DNA from: a virus
IMG/VR virus record: IMGVR_UViG_3300030737_000007
Coordinates: 1 to 64,000 of that record
DNA: 64,000 nt
Reading direction: 5' to 3' (one strand)
The translations under genes and the position numbers were made by a program. Of the stretch, positions 25,676 to 58,149 are shown piece after piece. Position 1 is the first letter of the stretch, and the number at the start of each line of letters is the position of its first letter. The notes under the pieces were generated by a model. The model was given only the letters and a program-made list of their open reading frames with translations. It had not been told where the DNA came from and searched no databases.

Positions 25676-25681
25676 TACGGG

Positions 25682-25873
25682 ATGAGCGAATACGGGATGA
25701 GCGAAAAAGATACTAGTTGCGCGACCTGTGGCGGGAAAAAGACGGACCATCCGTACGGAGAAAGTCGAGGAGTTTGCAAGTTATACAAGAGCAAGGAACC
25801 TTCCCTCCGCTCCGATCCACCGATCGTTGTGGAGATCACGCACTACTCGGGCGGGACGGGCGATCCGCAGTGA
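25682..25873 (+). CDS. Cys-containing small protein, probably leaderless
   Basis: 63 aa (MSEYGMSEKDTSCATCGGKK...). Single CxxC...C knuckle. The ATG is 6 bases after the -10 box. A 15 bp tandem duplication (TACGGGATGAGCGAA) makes two nested starts. GTGA overlap to the next gene. Confidence 0.5.
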   Translation: MSEYGMSEKDTSCATCGGKKTDHPYGESRGVCKLYKSKEPSLRSDPPIVVEITHYSGGTGDPQ

Positions 25874-31109: not shown

Positions 31110-31484
31110 GGGTGGTACGACTGGGGTCCGTTTACAATTTGGAAACCGGAAATAAAATGACTTTGGTAATTTAAATAAATTACTTTAGTATTTATGAAAG
31201 GAAAAGACCCTCGGGGTGACCAGGTCACGTAGCGGTACCGGCGGCGGCCAAGGGGGTAAGGCCCGCCCCAGCCGAAACTGATTTTAGGGTCCCCTACTCT
31301 AGCCAGCCAGCGACTCGATCTAACTCACTCAGTCTAAACGAGTTAGCACGCTGTAACATGACTGGCTTTCGACTCTGATACACTGTTGCGAGTCGGGCAT
31401 CTAGTGTATTCAGCGACTCACCAAAGGGAAATTGACACAATCGCGTCACAATACCGCGTCAAGTGATTGATTCTAAAGGCTGTT

Positions 31485-42259: not shown

Positions 42260-42870
42260 ATTCTCAAGTTGAGAAACCAGTGGTGATGTTCGATAGCCCC
42301 GAAGCTGCCACGTATCGGACGGACATAAAGGGTTGGGTCTCGCGGGGCGGCTTGTTCTATGGGGACAACCCAGGATCGGAGCGTGGCGCGCGCTGGAGCG
42401 GCTGTACACACCAGACTTGCGAATGCGGGGCCGTTCACGAAAAGAGCCGCAGCATTTGCTGGGCCTGCGTTTCCAAACAGAGGGACGAGAAGTACAACGC
42501 CCTTCCTATGGTGGAGTGGGATGAAGCCACACCTATCTGCACGTTCGACGACGACAAGTTCTTCTTTGACGAGTCCTCCCTGCTGGACTGGATGGGTGAA
42601 CTCAAGTGGGAGGCGGAGCAACGGGGCGAAGGGCTACCGTGCGTTCAGCTTGTGCTCTGTACACCTCACCGGCTCGGGTATATCGACGAGGACCAGTGGG
42701 CCGACGACTTAGCTGAGGACGGAGAACTCCCCGCCGAGGTACAGGAAAAGCTGGACGAATTAAACGAGGCCATCAAGCGCGCGCCGGTGGTATCGTGGTG
42801 GGCTGGGGCGACCCGGATCGACGTGGAGAAGCTGTGGGAGCAGGTCGCGGCTGAGGAAGTTTCCGGATAA
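42256..42870 (+). CDS. Hypothetical protein with Cys cluster
   Basis: 204 aa. 'CTHQTCECGAVHEKSRSICWAC' (about residues 50-71) binds zinc; a large acidic C-terminal domain follows. The second palindrome TTCTCAAGTTGAGAA begins 5 bases after the start. TAATG junction into the polymerase gene suggests a partnership with replication. Confidence 0.5.
   Translation: MNSQVEKPVVMFDSPEAATYRTDIKGWVSRGGLFYGDNPGSERGARWSGCTHQTCECGAVHEKSRSICWACVSKQRDEKYNALPMVEWDEATPICTFDDDKFFFDESSLLDWMGELKWEAEQRGEGLPCVQLVLCTPHRLGYIDEDQWADDLAEDGELPAEVQEKLDELNEAIKRAPVVSWWAGATRIDVEKLWEQVAAEEVSG
42261..42275. repeat. Second palindrome
   Basis: TTCTCAAGTTGAGAA at codons 2-7 of the 204-aa gene. Confidence 0.7.
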
Positions 42871-42875
42871 TGGAA
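42861..42875 (+). repeat. Dispersed 15 bp site over polymerase start
   Basis: TTCCGGATAATGGAA with the polymerase ATG. Confidence 0.8.
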
Positions 42876-45005
42876 ACGGACTTTTACCTCGACTGGGAAG
42901 TAAAATCTGTTGTGGCCCTAGATGTTCACGGGCTCGACAGGTACGCTAAGGATCCTTCGACGGCGATCCTGATGGGGGCGTACGCCGAGGGAGATCACGC
43001 ACCCAAACTCTGGCAGCCTCACCTCGAACCCAAGATGCCCGCCGAGCTGCGTGAGGCGCTTGAAGACCCGATGGTCGCTATCCACGCATGGCACAGCGCC
43101 TTTGAAAGGGTGATTTCCAAGAATGTGCTGAAGATCGACAAGCCCATCCCTGAGTGGAGATGTTCGATGTCCGCAGCGCGTTATTTGAGCTTGCCGGGAA
43201 GCCTGGACGACGCAGGCAAGATTCTGGGTCTGCGTGAAGACCAAGCCAAGATGAAGATCGGCGACAAGTTGATTCGGAAGTTTTGTATCCCGGAAGACCT
43301 TGGCGGAGAAACTACACTTTTCGGAATGAGCGAGCCCACTTTCCGATCCTGGGCGACGGACCCCGCCGAATGGGAATTATTTTGCGATTACTGCAAGCAG
43401 GATGTAGTTGCGGAGCGCGCCATCCTCAAAAAGATCCGCAAGTTCCCGTTGCCCGACTTCGAATGGGACACGTATTATCTCAACGAAATGGTCAATGCTA
43501 CTGGGTGGCCAGTGGACATGCGTCTCGTGACCGGGGCGCGTGAGATTGTCGTGCGGGAATTAGAACGCCTCGGTACCCGACTGCACGAACTCACAAAATT
43601 AGACAATTCTAACTCCGTGGAACAGTTACTACCCTGGTTAAGGGATCGTGGGTACAACTTCTCGTCGCTGAATAAAACCCTCGTCGCGCGCGCGCTCGAA
43701 GACACCCAACTGTCCGAGGACGCCCGAGAGGTTCTGATCCTGCGCGGCCAGACTTCCAAGTCATCGGTACGGAAGTACACCAACATCGCGGACATGGTGA
43801 GCTTGGACGGGCGGCTGCGGCACCAGTACACTTACTACGGCGCGGCGAGAACTGGGCGGAATGCTGCGCACGGTGTTAACGTCGGAAATCTCCCAAAACC
43901 AGTCAAGTCAGTCGAAAAGCACCTGGAGCGAGCGATCGAACTGGTGCGCGCCGGAGACTACGAGGGAGTCAAGCGAGAGTTTGACAAGCCTCTGGACGTG
44001 ATTACCTCGACCGTCCGTGCGTCCTTTCGAGCGGAGGACGGGAGTAAGTTTATCGTTTCGGATCTCACGTCAATCGAGAACGTAGCGATCATGTTCCTGT
44101 CTCGGTGCGTCTCGGGGCTAAAGGTGTTTGAGGAGAAGCGTGATCCCTACCTGGACTTCGCCGTCCACTTCTTCAAACAGAGTTACGCCGACCTCTACGC
44201 CGAGTACAAGGCGGGGGACAAGTCGAAGCGTACGCTGTGTAAACCAGCCTCCCTCGGATCTGGCTTTGGCTTGGGCGCGGGCGAAGAGTTCCTAGACGCA
44301 GACGGTAACAAACAGTGGAGCGGTCTCCTGAAATATGCCCGAGACATGGGAGTAATCATGACCCAGGAAGAGGCCACCAAAGCCATCGCTGTGTTCCGGA
44401 AAGTTTATCCCGAGGTGCCGCAGATCTGGAAGGACCTAGAGCGCGCCGCCGTCCGGGCCATACGAAACCCCGGATCATTGGTAGGCGTGGGCGTGCCTCA
44501 GTCGGACAAAGATCGTGAGTGGTATCTATCTAGAGGGCGCGCCGTAGACTTAGAGCCGTTCCTATCCTTCCGGTGCCACGGTAAGAAGATACTGGAATTG
44601 ATCCTGCCATCTGGGCGATCGCTGCATTACATTGACCCTCGCGTCGAAGAGGAACCAGCGGTTTGGGAAGGCAGATCGTACACCCGCCAGAAAATCATGT
44701 ACTACGGCAAGCAACAGAACACGTCCGCTTGGGGTTTGGTTCCCACATTCGGCGGCAAGTTGCTGGAAAACAGTGCCCAGAGCTGGGCCCGAGACATCCT
44801 CATGGAGGGCATGAAGAACGCTGCTGCGATGGGATTCGAAGTTGTCGGATCGACGTATGACGAGATCATCGCGCTGGTGCCTAATGATTCCCCCCTTGGG
44901 GTGGACCAGTTATGCGAGTGCATGACGCGGAAACCCTCGTGGATGCCCGATGGCATACCTCTTGGCGCGGCTGGTTTTGAGACACAAGAATACCGAAAAG
45001 ATTAG
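42870..45005 (+). CDS. DNA polymerase, family A
   Basis: 711 aa. N-terminal 3'-5' exonuclease: 'FYLDWEVKSVVALDVHGL' (DxE metal ligands) and 'CDYCKQDVVAERAIL' (YxxxD). Polymerase: motif A 'FIVSDLTSIENVAIM', motif B 'RTLCKPASLGSGFGLGAG', motif C 'GSTYDEIIALVP' (YDE in place of HDE). A full proofreading phage replicase. GAGGA precedes the dispersed site 42861-42875 in which the ATG lies. Confidence 0.9.
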   Translation: METDFYLDWEVKSVVALDVHGLDRYAKDPSTAILMGAYAEGDHAPKLWQPHLEPKMPAELREALEDPMVAIHAWHSAFERVISKNVLKIDKPIPEWRCSMSAARYLSLPGSLDDAGKILGLREDQAKMKIGDKLIRKFCIPEDLGGETTLFGMSEPTFRSWATDPAEWELFCDYCKQDVVAERAILKKIRKFPLPDFEWDTYYLNEMVNATGWPVDMRLVTGAREIVVRELERLGTRLHELTKLDNSNSVEQLLPWLRDRGYNFSSLNKTLVARALEDTQLSEDAREVLILRGQTSKSSVRKYTNIADMVSLDGRLRHQYTYYGAARTGRNAAHGVNVGNLPKPVKSVEKHLERAIELVRAGDYEGVKREFDKPLDVITSTVRASFRAEDGSKFIVSDLTSIENVAIMFLSRCVSGLKVFEEKRDPYLDFAVHFFKQSYADLYAEYKAGDKSKRTLCKPASLGSGFGLGAGEEFLDADGNKQWSGLLKYARDMGVIMTQEEATKAIAVFRKVYPEVPQIWKDLERAAVRAIRNPGSLVGVGVPQSDKDREWYLSRGRAVDLEPFLSFRCHGKKILELILPSGRSLHYIDPRVEEEPAVWEGRSYTRQKIMYYGKQQNTSAWGLVPTFGGKLLENSAQSWARDILMEGMKNAAAMGFEVVGSTYDEIIALVPNDSPLGVDQLCECMTRKPSWMPDGIPLGAAGFETQEYRKD

Positions 45006-45122: not shown

Positions 45123-45389
45123 ATGAAGCAAATTGTGAGCGTAGTAGAAGTAGACGGCGAGGGCCTAGAAGCCCTCCTTAACCAAGATGTCCTGCTGTTC
45201 GGACTCAACTATATCTATGCCGGGAAATTAGTCGGCGTGAACACAACTTTTGTCAAACTAGAAAACGCGAAGATCGTGTACGAGACCGGTTCGTTTACTG
45301 ATAAGGGATACAAAGACGCACAGCCGCTGCCCGGCGCTTCGTGGTATGTCCAGACCTCCGCCATTGAGTCTTTCGGCCTCGGAAAGTAG
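45123..45389 (+). CDS. Hypothetical protein
   Basis: 88 aa (MKQIVSVVEVDGEGLEALLN...), AAAGGAG upstream. Beta-rich; 'GKLVGVNTTFVKLENAKIVYETG' looks like an SH3-like or Sm-like barrel. It is the last gene before the hexamer repeat. Confidence 0.55.
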   Translation: MKQIVSVVEVDGEGLEALLNQDVLLFGLNYIYAGKLVGVNTTFVKLENAKIVYETGSFTDKGYKDAQPLPGASWYVQTSAIESFGLGK

Positions 45390-45395
45390 GCGGCT

Positions 45396-45623
45396 ATGGC
45401 CCGTTCAAGCAAACAAAAATACCGCTCTTTATGGTCGCGGTCGGGGTCGCGGTCGGGGTCGGGGTCGTGGTCGGGGTCGTGGTCGGGGTCGGGGTCGTGG
45501 TCGGGGTCGTGGTCGGGGTCGCGGTCGCGGTCGCGGTCGGGGTCGCGGTCGGGGTCGTGGTCGCGGTCGCGGTCGCGGTCGTGGTCGTGGTCGCGGTCGG
45601 GGTCGGGGTCGTGGTCGCTATAA
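45396..45623 (+). CDS. Possible Ser/Arg/Gly/Trp repeat protein
   Basis: 75 aa in one of three open frames over the hexamer repeat: MARSSKQKYRSLW then (S-R/G/W)n. Weak ribosome site. In the alternative frame, starting upstream and running to 45783, the repeat reads (Gly-Arg)31 and the variable base is always synonymous (CGN). Which frame, if any, is translated is unclear. Confidence 0.3.
   Translation: MARSSKQKYRSLWSRSGSRSGSGSWSGSWSGSGSWSGSWSGSRSRSRSGSRSGSWSRSRSRSWSWSRSGSGSWSL
45432..45617 (+). repeat. 31-copy hexamer tandem repeat NGGTCG
   Basis: Thirty-one uninterrupted units NGGTCG, N being C, G or T but never A; the other five bases are invariant. Purine-run GGGG words make G-quadruplexes possible. 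It lies between DNA polymerase and the clamp loader. Confidence 0.95.
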
Positions 45624-46348: not shown

Positions 46349-46546
46349 ATGGACAAGTCTCGCAGTTCTGTAAGCGTGTTTATCGGGTGGATGGCGGCTA
46401 TTATAATGGACGGGGTTGCCCCCAAAGCCAGTATTTGGGTGATTATCGGGTTTAGTTTTGCCGCCTACTCGGCAGCGGCGGTCATTGAGCACTTCCGTCA
46501 CGAAAAGGAACTGAACAAACTTCGCTGGCCCAAGGCGCTAGACTAA
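46349..46546 (+). CDS. Two-helix membrane protein
   Basis: 65 aa; hydrophobic helices at ~9-25 and ~29-46, charged C-terminus. Shine-Dalgarno GGAGAGG follows the dispersed site 46324-46338. TAATG to the next gene. Confidence 0.5.
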   Translation: MDKSRSSVSVFIGWMAAIIMDGVAPKASIWVIIGFSFAAYSAAAVIEHFRHEKELNKLRWPKALD

Positions 46547-46731
46547 TGGCTAACATCCTACAAGCAACCGAGTGGCTGAAGCAGCACAAGCGCGTCCGGC
46601 GCGCCAGCATGGGCGAGAAGGGTCACTTCGGTCTTACGCCGTCCGGGTTCGTCGTGTTCTCCGAGCCGGACTTCACCGCCACACTGCATATCAATGACCT
46701 GCTGGCGGAAGATTGGGAAGTAGATGAGTAG
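46546..46731 (+). CDS. Hypothetical protein
   Basis: 61 aa (MANILQATEWLKQHKRVRRA...). 'ATEWLKQHKRVRRASMG' followed by beta strands and 'INDLLAEDWEV': a pattern seen in small phage DUF2829-like proteins ('A..DLLA.DW.V'). Overlaps the clamp-loader start. Confidence 0.55.
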   Translation: MANILQATEWLKQHKRVRRASMGEKGHFGLTPSGFVVFSEPDFTATLHINDLLAEDWEVDE

Positions 46732-47671
46732 CTTAGCTGAAATCCTCCGCCCGCAAAAACTCGACGACCTGCTGGGAAACTCTGGGATCAAAAAAGTTGT
46801 ACAATCCTGGATCGACACGGACAACTTCCCTCGGTGTCAGCTCTACACCGGCCCGGTCGGCACGGGGAAGAGTTCTCTTGCGGCGATCGTGGCGCGCGCT
46901 TGCCAAGGGAAGGGTGACTTCGAAGGCGCGGACATCCGTTCTATCAACGCCGGGGCCGTCGGGAAGGTAGACGACATGCGGGAACTAGCCGCCGAGTCCG
47001 CCAGCCGCCCGTTCCTTGGCCGCTATAGAGTGTTCATTCTAGAAGAGTTTCAGAGGTGTACGGACGCCGCACAGGACGCGATCCTTGTGCCTATGGAGAA
47101 TAACCCTTGGACAGTGTGGCTCCTTACAAGTTCTGAACCCGCCAAGATCTTGGCTTCGATCAAGTCCAGGTGTTCGGCGGCTACGTTCGAGCTGAAGCCC
47201 CTGAACCGAGGAGAGATTGCAGACTTAGTGTTGCGCGCCGCCCCCTCGGTTGCCTCTGGGACAGGCGTAGGCGTCGGAGATTTCCTCAGCAGCAAGGGCA
47301 TCACATCTCCCCGGGAAATTCTGGGTGTTCTCGATCAGCACCTGTCCGGACTGCCCCTCGAAGAGTGTATACACGGATCCGAGCACGAGCCCCTCTACTC
47401 CGCCGTAGCCTCAGCCGTGCTGTCCGGAAACTGGACAAAGACCGCCGGGCTGCTGGCCCAGATCCCTACCGCAGACTACCGAGGTATGGTGGCTATGGTA
47501 TCGGCGTACCTGGCGGGGGCACTGCTGAAGGAGCCGGTTGGAGCGCGCGCAGACGGATTGGCGGCCTGCCTGGTCGGGCTCGGGTCGAACCAGTTTGCGG
47601 ATGGCGTAGCGTACGCGGCGGCTAAGGGTCTACTTTACAAATGTGCAAAGATTTTAGGAGGCGGCAAATGA
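46724..47671 (+). CDS. Clamp loader AAA+ subunit
   Basis: 315 aa. 'LRPQKLDDLLGNSGIKKVVQSW' N-terminus, Walker A 'LYTGPVGTGKSSLAAIV' (about residues 41-57), Walker B 'RVFILEEFQRC', sensor 1 'VWLLTSSEP' and SRC box 'SIKSRCSAATFELKPL' are the order of DnaX/RFC clamp loaders. Loads the sliding clamp at 61.1 kb for the polymerase at 42.9 kb. Confidence 0.88.
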   Translation: MSSLAEILRPQKLDDLLGNSGIKKVVQSWIDTDNFPRCQLYTGPVGTGKSSLAAIVARACQGKGDFEGADIRSINAGAVGKVDDMRELAAESASRPFLGRYRVFILEEFQRCTDAAQDAILVPMENNPWTVWLLTSSEPAKILASIKSRCSAATFELKPLNRGEIADLVLRAAPSVASGTGVGVGDFLSSKGITSPREILGVLDQHLSGLPLEECIHGSEHEPLYSAVASAVLSGNWTKTAGLLAQIPTADYRGMVAMVSAYLAGALLKEPVGARADGLAACLVGLGSNQFADGVAYAAAKGLLYKCAKILGGGK

Positions 47672-48391: not shown

Positions 48392-49573
48392 ATGGAATTT
48401 ACTGACCAAGAACTAGCTGCAATACGTGCCGAGCAATGTAAGGGTGCGTCCGACAACCAATTTACGCTGTTCATCAGCGAGTGCAAGAGTCGTGCGCTAC
48501 GTCCGGGTAGCCATATCCTATTTCAGCTCAGGAAGGCGAAGGAATACGATCCTGTCACCGGCGCGTACATCTCCTTCATGAAACCTTTCTACATCACCAC
48601 GATCAGCGCGCTGTTGCTGATTGCTGAACGGACAGGTAAGTATGATGGGGCCTCCGCACCCGAGTACATCTACCTCGACGACGCCGGGGAGCCGACGGTC
48701 CTCTCCGAAATCCCCCTGCCCGACAAAGAGAAGAAGTCTTTGCCCCGGGAGCCGTGGGCTGTTCGGGTCAAGGTGCGCCGTAAGGACTTCTCCGAGCCCA
48801 TCTCCAGCATTGTCCGGTTCGAATCGGTCGCCGGTACTCGCCGGGTTGAAGGCGGGGGCGTAGCGCTCACCGAGATGTGGCAGAAGAGGGGGCCCGAGCA
48901 AAACGCCAAGTGCTCCCTGGCCGCGGCGATACGCATTTGTTTCCCGGAAGAGGCTGGTCAACTGTTCATTGCAGAGGAATTGAAGAACGAACCAGAAGAT
49001 GCACCAACACCATCTCAAGCCCTTACCCCCGCACCCTCCGCCCCGATCGTCCCCAAGGTAGACCAAACGCCCGCAACCTCAACCGATGCCCCGCGACCCG
49101 GCGAAGAGAAGCCGATCCCAACACTAGTGGAGCTGATCCTGGATAAGCCCGCCGCCCCCGAACCCGAGAGGAAGAAACCAGGCCGCCCGAAGAAAGAGCC
49201 GGTTCCAGATAACGGAAACCCCGGTGAGCTTGGGATCACAGACGAGGACATCGCCCTCGCAGGCCCCTCGACCACCGAGACTCCCGAAGAGCGTGCGGCG
49301 GCCCTAGCAGACGCCCACGCATTTGTAGAAGAGGTATCGGTCGTAGCAACTGACCCGTTACCAACCAAAGAGCAGAAGGATGCCTTCGTAGCCCATGTCC
49401 GAGAAATAGTAGCGGCGGGGGTTGACAACAAGCTGTTGGGAGCGTATATTTGCGGCAGAGTAAATAAGCAAAAGTCCAGTGAGCTAACCGTAGGCGAATG
49501 GAAGTCAGCGTTTGAGATTCTGAACTCCGCCAAAGCGGCTGGGACGCTCAAGGAAGTGGTGAAGCCGGTATGA
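48392..49573 (+). CDS. RecT/Bet-type ssDNA annealing protein
   Basis: 393 aa. Residues ~1-195 have the RecT/Bet order: 'FTLFISECKSRALRPGSHILFQLRK', 'PFYITTISALLLIAERTGKYDG' and 'WQKRGPEQNAKCSLAAAIRICFP'. The C-terminal half is a Pro/Ala/Glu-rich extension, longer than usual, with a site copy at 49203-49217. Anneals ssDNA in recombination-dependent replication; the Cas4-like nuclease at 54.8 kb may be its exonuclease partner. Confidence 0.8.
   Translation: MEFTDQELAAIRAEQCKGASDNQFTLFISECKSRALRPGSHILFQLRKAKEYDPVTGAYISFMKPFYITTISALLLIAERTGKYDGASAPEYIYLDDAGEPTVLSEIPLPDKEKKSLPREPWAVRVKVRRKDFSEPISSIVRFESVAGTRRVEGGGVALTEMWQKRGPEQNAKCSLAAAIRICFPEEAGQLFIAEELKNEPEDAPTPSQALTPAPSAPIVPKVDQTPATSTDAPRPGEEKPIPTLVELILDKPAAPEPERKKPGRPKKEPVPDNGNPGELGITDEDIALAGPSTTETPEERAAALADAHAFVEEVSVVATDPLPTKEQKDAFVAHVREIVAAGVDNKLLGAYICGRVNKQKSSELTVGEWKSAFEILNSAKAAGTLKEVVKPV
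49203..49217 (+). repeat. Dispersed 15 bp site (variant)
   Basis: TTCCAGATAACGGAA inside the annealase gene. Confidence 0.65.
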
Positions 49574-57021: not shown

Positions 57022-58149
57022 GTGCCGAAAAGAGTCGTGGATGGGGACGCTGTATGGCGCTCCAAGAAGCTGAAACTGATGCACCCGCAGTTCCGGGCCG
57101 AGTACGCCAACCTGGTCCCGCTCGCGGAGGCTAACGGAGTGTTTGAAGTGGACGCGGACAGGATCTGGTCGGATGTCTACTCATACAACCGCGACGAAAT
57201 CTCGGTCGAAACGGTCGAAGAAATCCTCGCTAACCTAGAAGAAGTCGGTCTCCTGCGTGTCTGGGAAGAGGATCGCAAGGTCTGGGGGTATTGGGAAGGT
57301 ATCCACAAGTCTGGTCGGCTGCCAAAAGCCTCGGAACTGTCGAAATATAAGAACTTACCTCCGAACCCACCGCCGGAAAAGAGTATCAGCGGAGACTCAG
57401 CGGAGACCTCGCTGACCCTCGGCCCTAGGTTTGGTATTGGTTTGGATAGGATTGGTAATGGTTTAGATGCGGAACCGCAAGACCAAAATGAAACAATTTC
57501 TGAAGACGAGGACACGGACATGAAGCTCAAGAAAGAAATTCAGGTAGTGTGCATGAGGTACGGAGCCAACGCCGGGGGGTTCAACGAGACCTGGGAACAG
57601 ATGTCCGCTTTGGAGCAGGCCCATTCTCGCGGAGCAGTTGTCCGCAGCTTTACCGAGTTCCTGGACGAGAACCAAGGGGATGACTTCCCCCGGGGGGCTG
57701 TTTCTGCGTACCTGAGGGGCGCTGCGAGGCGTTTGTCCTCTGGAACGTCCTCAGCATCGGTCGCGGCCAAGGACCCGCAGGTGAAGGCACTGGAGGCCGA
57801 ATTGATCTACTTGTCCGACGATCGGGTAACCTTTCAGGCCGGGCACAAGATCGTTCTGGAGGAATTGCTTCGGGAACATAGCCCCGAGGAGGTTATCTCA
57901 GCTTTCAAGACGTTCATTGAGAACAAAGACCTGAATGACCCTAAGGTGCTGAACTTCGCTGCCAAGAACTTCGTGGACGCTGCAAACGGTCTGATACTCT
58001 CTGCGCGCCGCCGCAACCAAGAACGGGATCGCGACTCCGCCGCCCGAGAATCAGCTAAGCTCCGCCTCCAAGAAGAAGCAGAAGCCGAGCGGGCCGCCGC
58101 GGAAGTCGCCAAGCAGGCTGAGGAAGCGTTGTTCGATCCCCTCGCGTAA
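57022..58149 (+). CDS. Replication-initiator-like protein
   Basis: 375 aa from GTG 57022. N-terminal winged helix-like 'MHPQFRAEYANLVPLAEANGVFEVDADRIW', then a Pro/Gly-rich linker (about 100-150) and a helical C-terminus ending in Arg/Glu-rich coiled coil. This resembles phage replisome-organiser proteins (DnaD/O type), and it precedes the primase-helicase. A dispersed site (56994-57008) is 13 bp upstream of the start. Confidence 0.55.
   Translation: MPKRVVDGDAVWRSKKLKLMHPQFRAEYANLVPLAEANGVFEVDADRIWSDVYSYNRDEISVETVEEILANLEEVGLLRVWEEDRKVWGYWEGIHKSGRLPKASELSKYKNLPPNPPPEKSISGDSAETSLTLGPRFGIGLDRIGNGLDAEPQDQNETISEDEDTDMKLKKEIQVVCMRYGANAGGFNETWEQMSALEQAHSRGAVVRSFTEFLDENQGDDFPRGAVSAYLRGAARRLSSGTSSASVAAKDPQVKALEAELIYLSDDRVTFQAGHKIVLEELLREHSPEEVISAFKTFIENKDLNDPKVLNFAAKNFVDAANGLILSARRRNQERDRDSAARESAKLRLQEEAEAERAAAEVAKQAEEALFDPLA

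Follow-up and report, generated by a model that had tools for sequence, protein, structure and literature searches.

The hexamer array at the centre of this analysis encodes a small viral protein, nearly all of it Ser in alternation with Gly, Arg or Trp. It lies in a 64,000-nt stretch of viral DNA (hereafter the window), which is positions 1 to 64,000 of the 91,894-base (91.9-kb) IMG/VR record IMGVR_UViG_3300030737_000007. The gene is found directly behind a second small gene, whose product is predicted to adopt the Sm/LSm fold, and searches for relatives show that this two-gene cassette is present in hundreds of mostly uncultured phages. The Sm fold itself is known, and the two-gene phage module is new as far as the tools used here reach. 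The features discussed below are collected in Table 1.

Table 1. Positions of the cassette and its parts in the window, with the evidence for each.
Feature	Position	Strand	Evidence
Family A DNA polymerase, upstream of the cassette (context only)	42870..45005	+	PHROG 17, E 1e-83
Predicted Sm-fold protein gene, 88 aa, constant upstream partner	45123..45389	+	AlphaFold model, Foldseek, VIA-align, IMG/VR relatives
6-nt gap between the stop of the Sm-like gene and the ATG of the repeat gene	45390..45395	+	Sequence
Repeat-protein gene, MARSSKQKYRSL-(X-Ser)31-L, 75 aa, basic	45396..45623	+	ORF list; frame, start and stop kept across relatives
N-terminal segment MARSSKQKYRSL, a basic motif conserved in clade A and a candidate for docking	45396..45431	+	N-terminus type tracks Sm clade
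Hexamer array, 31 perfect NGGTCG units, coding for (X-Ser)31	45432..45617	+	Sequence, Tandem Repeats Finder, pattern search

The initial annotation had described 31 perfect NGGTCG hexamers at 45432-45617 whose variable base is never A, and the sequence, Tandem Repeats Finder and a pattern count all bear this out. Translation in the frame from 45396 gives a variable base of G in 12 units, C in 10, T in 9 and A in none. Tandem Repeats Finder placed a repeat at 45433-45617 with both a period of 6 (score 244) and a period of 30 (score 272). Within the 91,894-base record, a pattern of four NGGTCG units has 28 forward matches, all inside the array; the reverse strand and the backwards control gave no match. 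Assembly error, which had also been raised, is unlikely, because the array recurs unchanged in a second IMG/VR contig (3300029910_000019, identical over 7,878 bases with the array included) and other arrays have identical copies in up to five contigs (L165-L169). Elsewhere in the window there are three short two-copy tandem repeats, at 25676-25705, 31150-31194 and 57426-57468 (15, 22 and 21 bases).

According to the ORF list, three frames are open across the array in the window. The frame with Ser at every second residue runs from an ATG at 45396 to a TAA at 45623, and its X residues are Gly (12), Arg (10) and Trp (9). Among 137 complete arrays with flanks, this frame has a start codon at most 30 codons upstream in every case (ATG in 125) and a stop codon at a median of one codon past the array. 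Relatives of the 88-aa gene in IMG/VR have a small ORF right behind them, composed of a short N-terminus (MIRSSKQRYRS or MRRSIKQKYRS, for example), a Ser-X array and a stop. The (Ser-Arg/Gly/Trp)n product with a possible ATG, which the initial annotation had mentioned as an alternative, is consequently the correct one, its ATG at 45396 being matched by starts and stops kept in relatives. The same annotation had hinted at protein-level selection for (Gly-Arg)31; selection on the protein stands, but in the Ser frame and not in the Gly-Arg frame, since Ser codons vary and the composition of X is constant. A (Gly-Arg)31 peptide is in fact the least probable of all the readings considered here. In the window its frame stays open between 45346 and 45783, but it exists only where Ser is coded by TCG; in relatives with TCT, TCA, AGC or AGT arrays it reads Gly-Leu, Gly-His/Gln, Gly-Ala or Gly-Val. 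Moreover, an in-frame stop lies at most 30 codons upstream in 131 of the 137 arrays, the median tail is 15 codons, and the start codon already noted as poor is an ATG in only 14. The PHROG matches of this frame look like low-complexity matches.

Codon usage indicates that selection acts on the protein and not on the DNA word. The Ser codon is nearly uniform inside one array (mean 97%) and differs between viruses, being TCG, TCT, TCA, AGC or AGT, and TCC in L150. Across 182 distinct arrays from loci selected by their Sm gene, X consists of 30-39% Gly, 25-37% Arg and 25-33% Trp in every Ser-codon class; this change of Ser codon while X stays at about one third each of Gly, Arg and Trp is what points to the protein. 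The peptide is about 50% Ser and about one sixth each Gly, Arg and aromatic, irrespective of the codons used. Arg is coded by CGN only in 55 arrays, by AGR only in 79 and by both in 15, with an Arg share of 32% in the CGN-only against 30% in the AGR-only arrays. Specifically, the window array uses CGG alone, which is the reason for the absence of A at its variable base, and many other arrays use AGG alone. In two viruses (L151 and L195) Tyr replaces Trp and the codons are TAC, GGC and CGC; Gly and Arg codons end in the same base as the aromatic codon. This agreement fits units that would descend from one another by duplication and few substitutions, and most arrays would be NGG because the units arose from each other and Trp has only TGG. 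The order of X is near random, with identical neighbours mildly avoided (0.88 of expected).

The same data bear on two readings in which the peptide would not matter. The coding strand is G-rich in most arrays and the hexamers are regular, as would suit a DNA or RNA element with incidental coding, such as the origin iterons or G-quadruplexes suggested in the initial annotation, or a recombination site. This has been largely refuted and is very improbable, given that the word turns into NGGAGC, NGGTCT or TAC/CGC/GGC-TCG while the peptide keeps its pattern, and that in one frame the start and the stop hold their positions. Even less probable is a translation-level device, in which NGG codons would promote peptidyl-tRNA drop-off near the start and the array would serve as a ribosome or tRNA sink, whatever its peptide. 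Most X codons are indeed NGG, and one paper (PMC12204400) reports that 5' NGG codons are suppressive via such drop-off. However, NGG follows from Trp being coded by TGG alone, from which the Gly and Arg codons depart at the first base; with Tyr (TAC) as the aromatic residue the other codons are GGC and CGC; and GGG and CGG are not rare in the window virus (26% of Gly and 25% of Arg codons).

Comparison of close relatives showed that arrays gain and lose whole hexamers, and array length is the main difference between near-identical viruses. L173 and L174 are 99.8% identical over 8.26 kb, with most differences inside one array, and L203 and L207 have very different array lengths between flanks that are 98.8-99.8% identical. 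The repeat gene is present in several tandem copies in some viruses; at 3259-6258 of L148, at least 13 repeat-gene paralogues of the Ser-X type are arranged in tandem, each with a MITKRTRWRR-like N-terminus.

Concerning the upstream partner, the AF2 model of the 88-aa protein (pLDDT 90.5) consists of an N-terminal helix and a bent sheet of five strands. Nearly all of the 50 matches listed by Foldseek against the PDB are Sm, LSm or SmAP proteins (E ~1e-3), and VIA-align superimposed the model on Sm chains with Z-scores of 9.5-10.5, at ~2 Å over ~70 residues. The upstream genes of a second group of loci (clade B, IRTVT..TGRL..LEDAAWIADTGRF) are divergent and were joined to that of the window and its relatives (clade A) by profile comparison (E 3e-11); their model (pLDDT 93.0) also has the Sm fold, and the PDB matches listed for it are nearly all Sm/LSm. 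The models thus predict an Sm/LSm fold for the partner in both clades, which is a fold assignment and not proof of RNA binding. No Sm chain was found by a profile search of PDB sequences with the 88-aa protein, and no family matched it in PHROGs, Pfam or NCBIfam; three of its BFVD fold matches are named DUF6948, a family of phage proteins. By inspection of the RNA-contact residues (Asp/Asn of Sm1, Arg-Gly of Sm2), the Sm motifs are only partly kept. Close to the position of Sm2, clade B has GRG, whereas clade A shows no Arg-Gly there, which leaves RNA binding by its Sm protein doubtful. Most of the Sm partners are acidic, against a median net charge of +10 for the repeat protein.

Relatives in IMG/VR numbered 173 for clade A and 419 for clade B, and we examined 80 and 79 of these loci, respectively. 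All 159 were picked by the Sm gene alone, and as some come from near-identical viruses the counts are not independent. The repeat gene is directly downstream of the Sm gene in 147 of them (72 of 80 in clade A and 75 of 79 in clade B). The eight clade A exceptions are three contigs ending at most 91 nt past the Sm gene, four short or collapsed arrays and one array 5' of the Sm gene, and two of the four in clade B have degenerate arrays. In the reverse direction, a DNA pattern gave 78 arrays with sufficient flank; an Sm gene lies within 600 nt upstream of 62 of them and elsewhere in the locus for nine. In some loci the repeat gene precedes the Sm gene, and others have a repeat gene but no detected Sm gene. 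The array of L211 (3808-3970) is located just 5' of the Sm-like gene, the repeat gene of L170 (4265-4306), right after an intact Sm-like gene, is reduced to MTRGLKQKYRSGS and a stop, and that of L065 (7172-7290) stands without a detected Sm gene, behind an ORF resembling the end of a family A DNA polymerase.

The two genes share a 4-nt stop/start overlap (ATGA) in 14 loci of clade A and 17 of clade B, which suggests translational coupling. Of 65 clade A loci, 54 have a repeat protein with a basic N-terminus (KQKYRS type), against 1 of 37 in clade B, where the N-terminus is mostly of the MNAAIxRxGYDW type. This association between N-terminus and Sm clade (Fisher p 1e-16, with shared descent not corrected for) suggests a docking segment matched to the Sm partner, a pattern that common descent alone could also give.

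The Sm gene is the only window gene with a conserved place beside the array: a polymerase homologue is near the cassette in only 8 loci, and the remaining window genes each recur in 9 loci at most. In the window itself, a RecT-like annealing protein (48392-49573) and a clamp loader (46724-47671) are near the cassette and form a replication region with the upstream polymerase. A 61-aa ORF at 46546-46728 barely reaches the Pfam cut-off for the Tad2-like domain of Thoeris anti-defence (25.1 vs 25.0 bits).

The distribution searches used a single query each, so that divergent members may be missed. Among 50,697 phage records each clade query had one match, both from Manatee Spring, and a DNA-level search of phage records with the region had none. 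Bacterial and archaeal genomes gave three MAG contigs, binned as a proteobacterium, Patescibacteria and Amesbacteria and too few to name a host, and plasmids gave no match. Because of this single phage record per query and the three MAG contigs, the hosts are probably uncultured. Comparison of the cassette with Pfam, NCBIfam, PHROGs and PADLOC profiles gave nothing convincing, with no PADLOC match for either protein at E 0.1. The cassette is invisible to family databases, probably because one gene is of low complexity and the other too divergent.

As for function, we consider it most likely, at slightly less than even confidence, that an oligomeric Sm-like hub and a disordered sticker tail on it assemble with nucleic acid; the disorder, the docking, the sticker-spacer assembly and the nucleic-acid binding are what we infer. 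The repeat protein would be a positively charged sticker-and-spacer tail, with Arg and Trp or Tyr as putative stickers and Gly and Ser as spacers. It may dock through its clade-specific N-terminus on a putative Sm-like ring, and the complex could bind or condense nucleic acid during infection, with array length setting the valency. In such a complex, the disordered tails that Sm, LSm and Hfq proteins carry would have their counterpart in a separate subunit. The wider proposal is more tentative, and we give it only about one chance in three: a widespread, undescribed RNP-like phage module, in which a Sm-fold ring and a separately encoded, length-variable (Ser-Gly/Arg/Trp)n sticker build a condensate or RNP compartment in infected uncultured bacteria.

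Next in rank, and unlikely, comes a host-directed accessory pair that serves, for example, anti-defence or host takeover or yields a toxic basic Arg/Trp peptide, and whose Sm-like member would carry or neutralise the other. Variation in array length and order would then be an arms-race or tuning feature. Arg/Trp-rich basic peptides can act on membranes or nucleic acids. The mostly acidic Sm partner opposite a basic repeat protein, the multi-copy paralogues of L148 and the weak Tad2-like gene 1 kb downstream in the window would all agree with such a role, but neither protein matches PADLOC, and with no constant neighbour besides the Sm gene no defence context is visible.

The leading reading, an Sm-like hub with a sticker tail, recalls eukaryotic RNP assemblies in its combination of an Sm-fold protein and a basic Trp/Arg-rich repeat protein. 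With many evolved lengths and residue orders drawn from one set of three residues, the arrays would offer a natural test of sticker-and-spacer rules. A pair that condenses nucleic acid would be a minimal phage-made organelle; otherwise the cassette is still a large uncharacterised gene pair that evolves in an unusual way.

Our literature search, with preprints and most subscription journals outside its coverage, returned no paper for DUF6948, for phage Sm-like or Hfq-like proteins in the wording used, or for phage dipeptide-repeat proteins, and no description of either protein or of the pairing. Among known systems, the serine-aspartate repeats of the MSCRAMM Sdr/Clf adhesins are also Ser dipeptide repeats and gave the only NCBIfam matches. 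However, these reach 11-13 bits against cut-offs of 1150-2500 (12.8 against 1150, for instance), and the phage protein is basic instead of acidic, with no signal peptide or anchor seen; we therefore rejected membership. Eukaryotic SR proteins and FUS-type prion-like low-complexity domains share Arg/Ser repeats, or the aromatic and Arg stickers and Gly/Ser spacers of the sticker-spacer model (PMC9748015, PMC12677899). The 75-aa ORF, in contrast, is a 12-aa head plus the array, without a Pfam match and without the RRM-plus-RS-domain layout of an SR protein; it is nearly all repeat, with strict Ser alternation and Trp, and is found in phages. Bacterial Hfq, as proposed here for the phage pair, is an Sm protein tuned by a disordered segment (PMC5606850), and foci of Hfq in starved cells are described in a further report (PMC7458820). 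The Hfq tail is in cis, acidic and without a dipeptide array, whereas the phage tail would act in trans and is basic and Trp-rich. Archaeal SmAP and eukaryotic Sm and LSm proteins (1jri, 1loj, 1h64, 4m75) resemble the phage partner in its predicted helix and five-stranded barrel (Z ~10), but sequence similarity to them is not detectable. Several Sm/LSm proteins carry disordered RG-rich tails; in the phages, unlike in these, the low-complexity part is a separate gene of Ser-X dipeptides.
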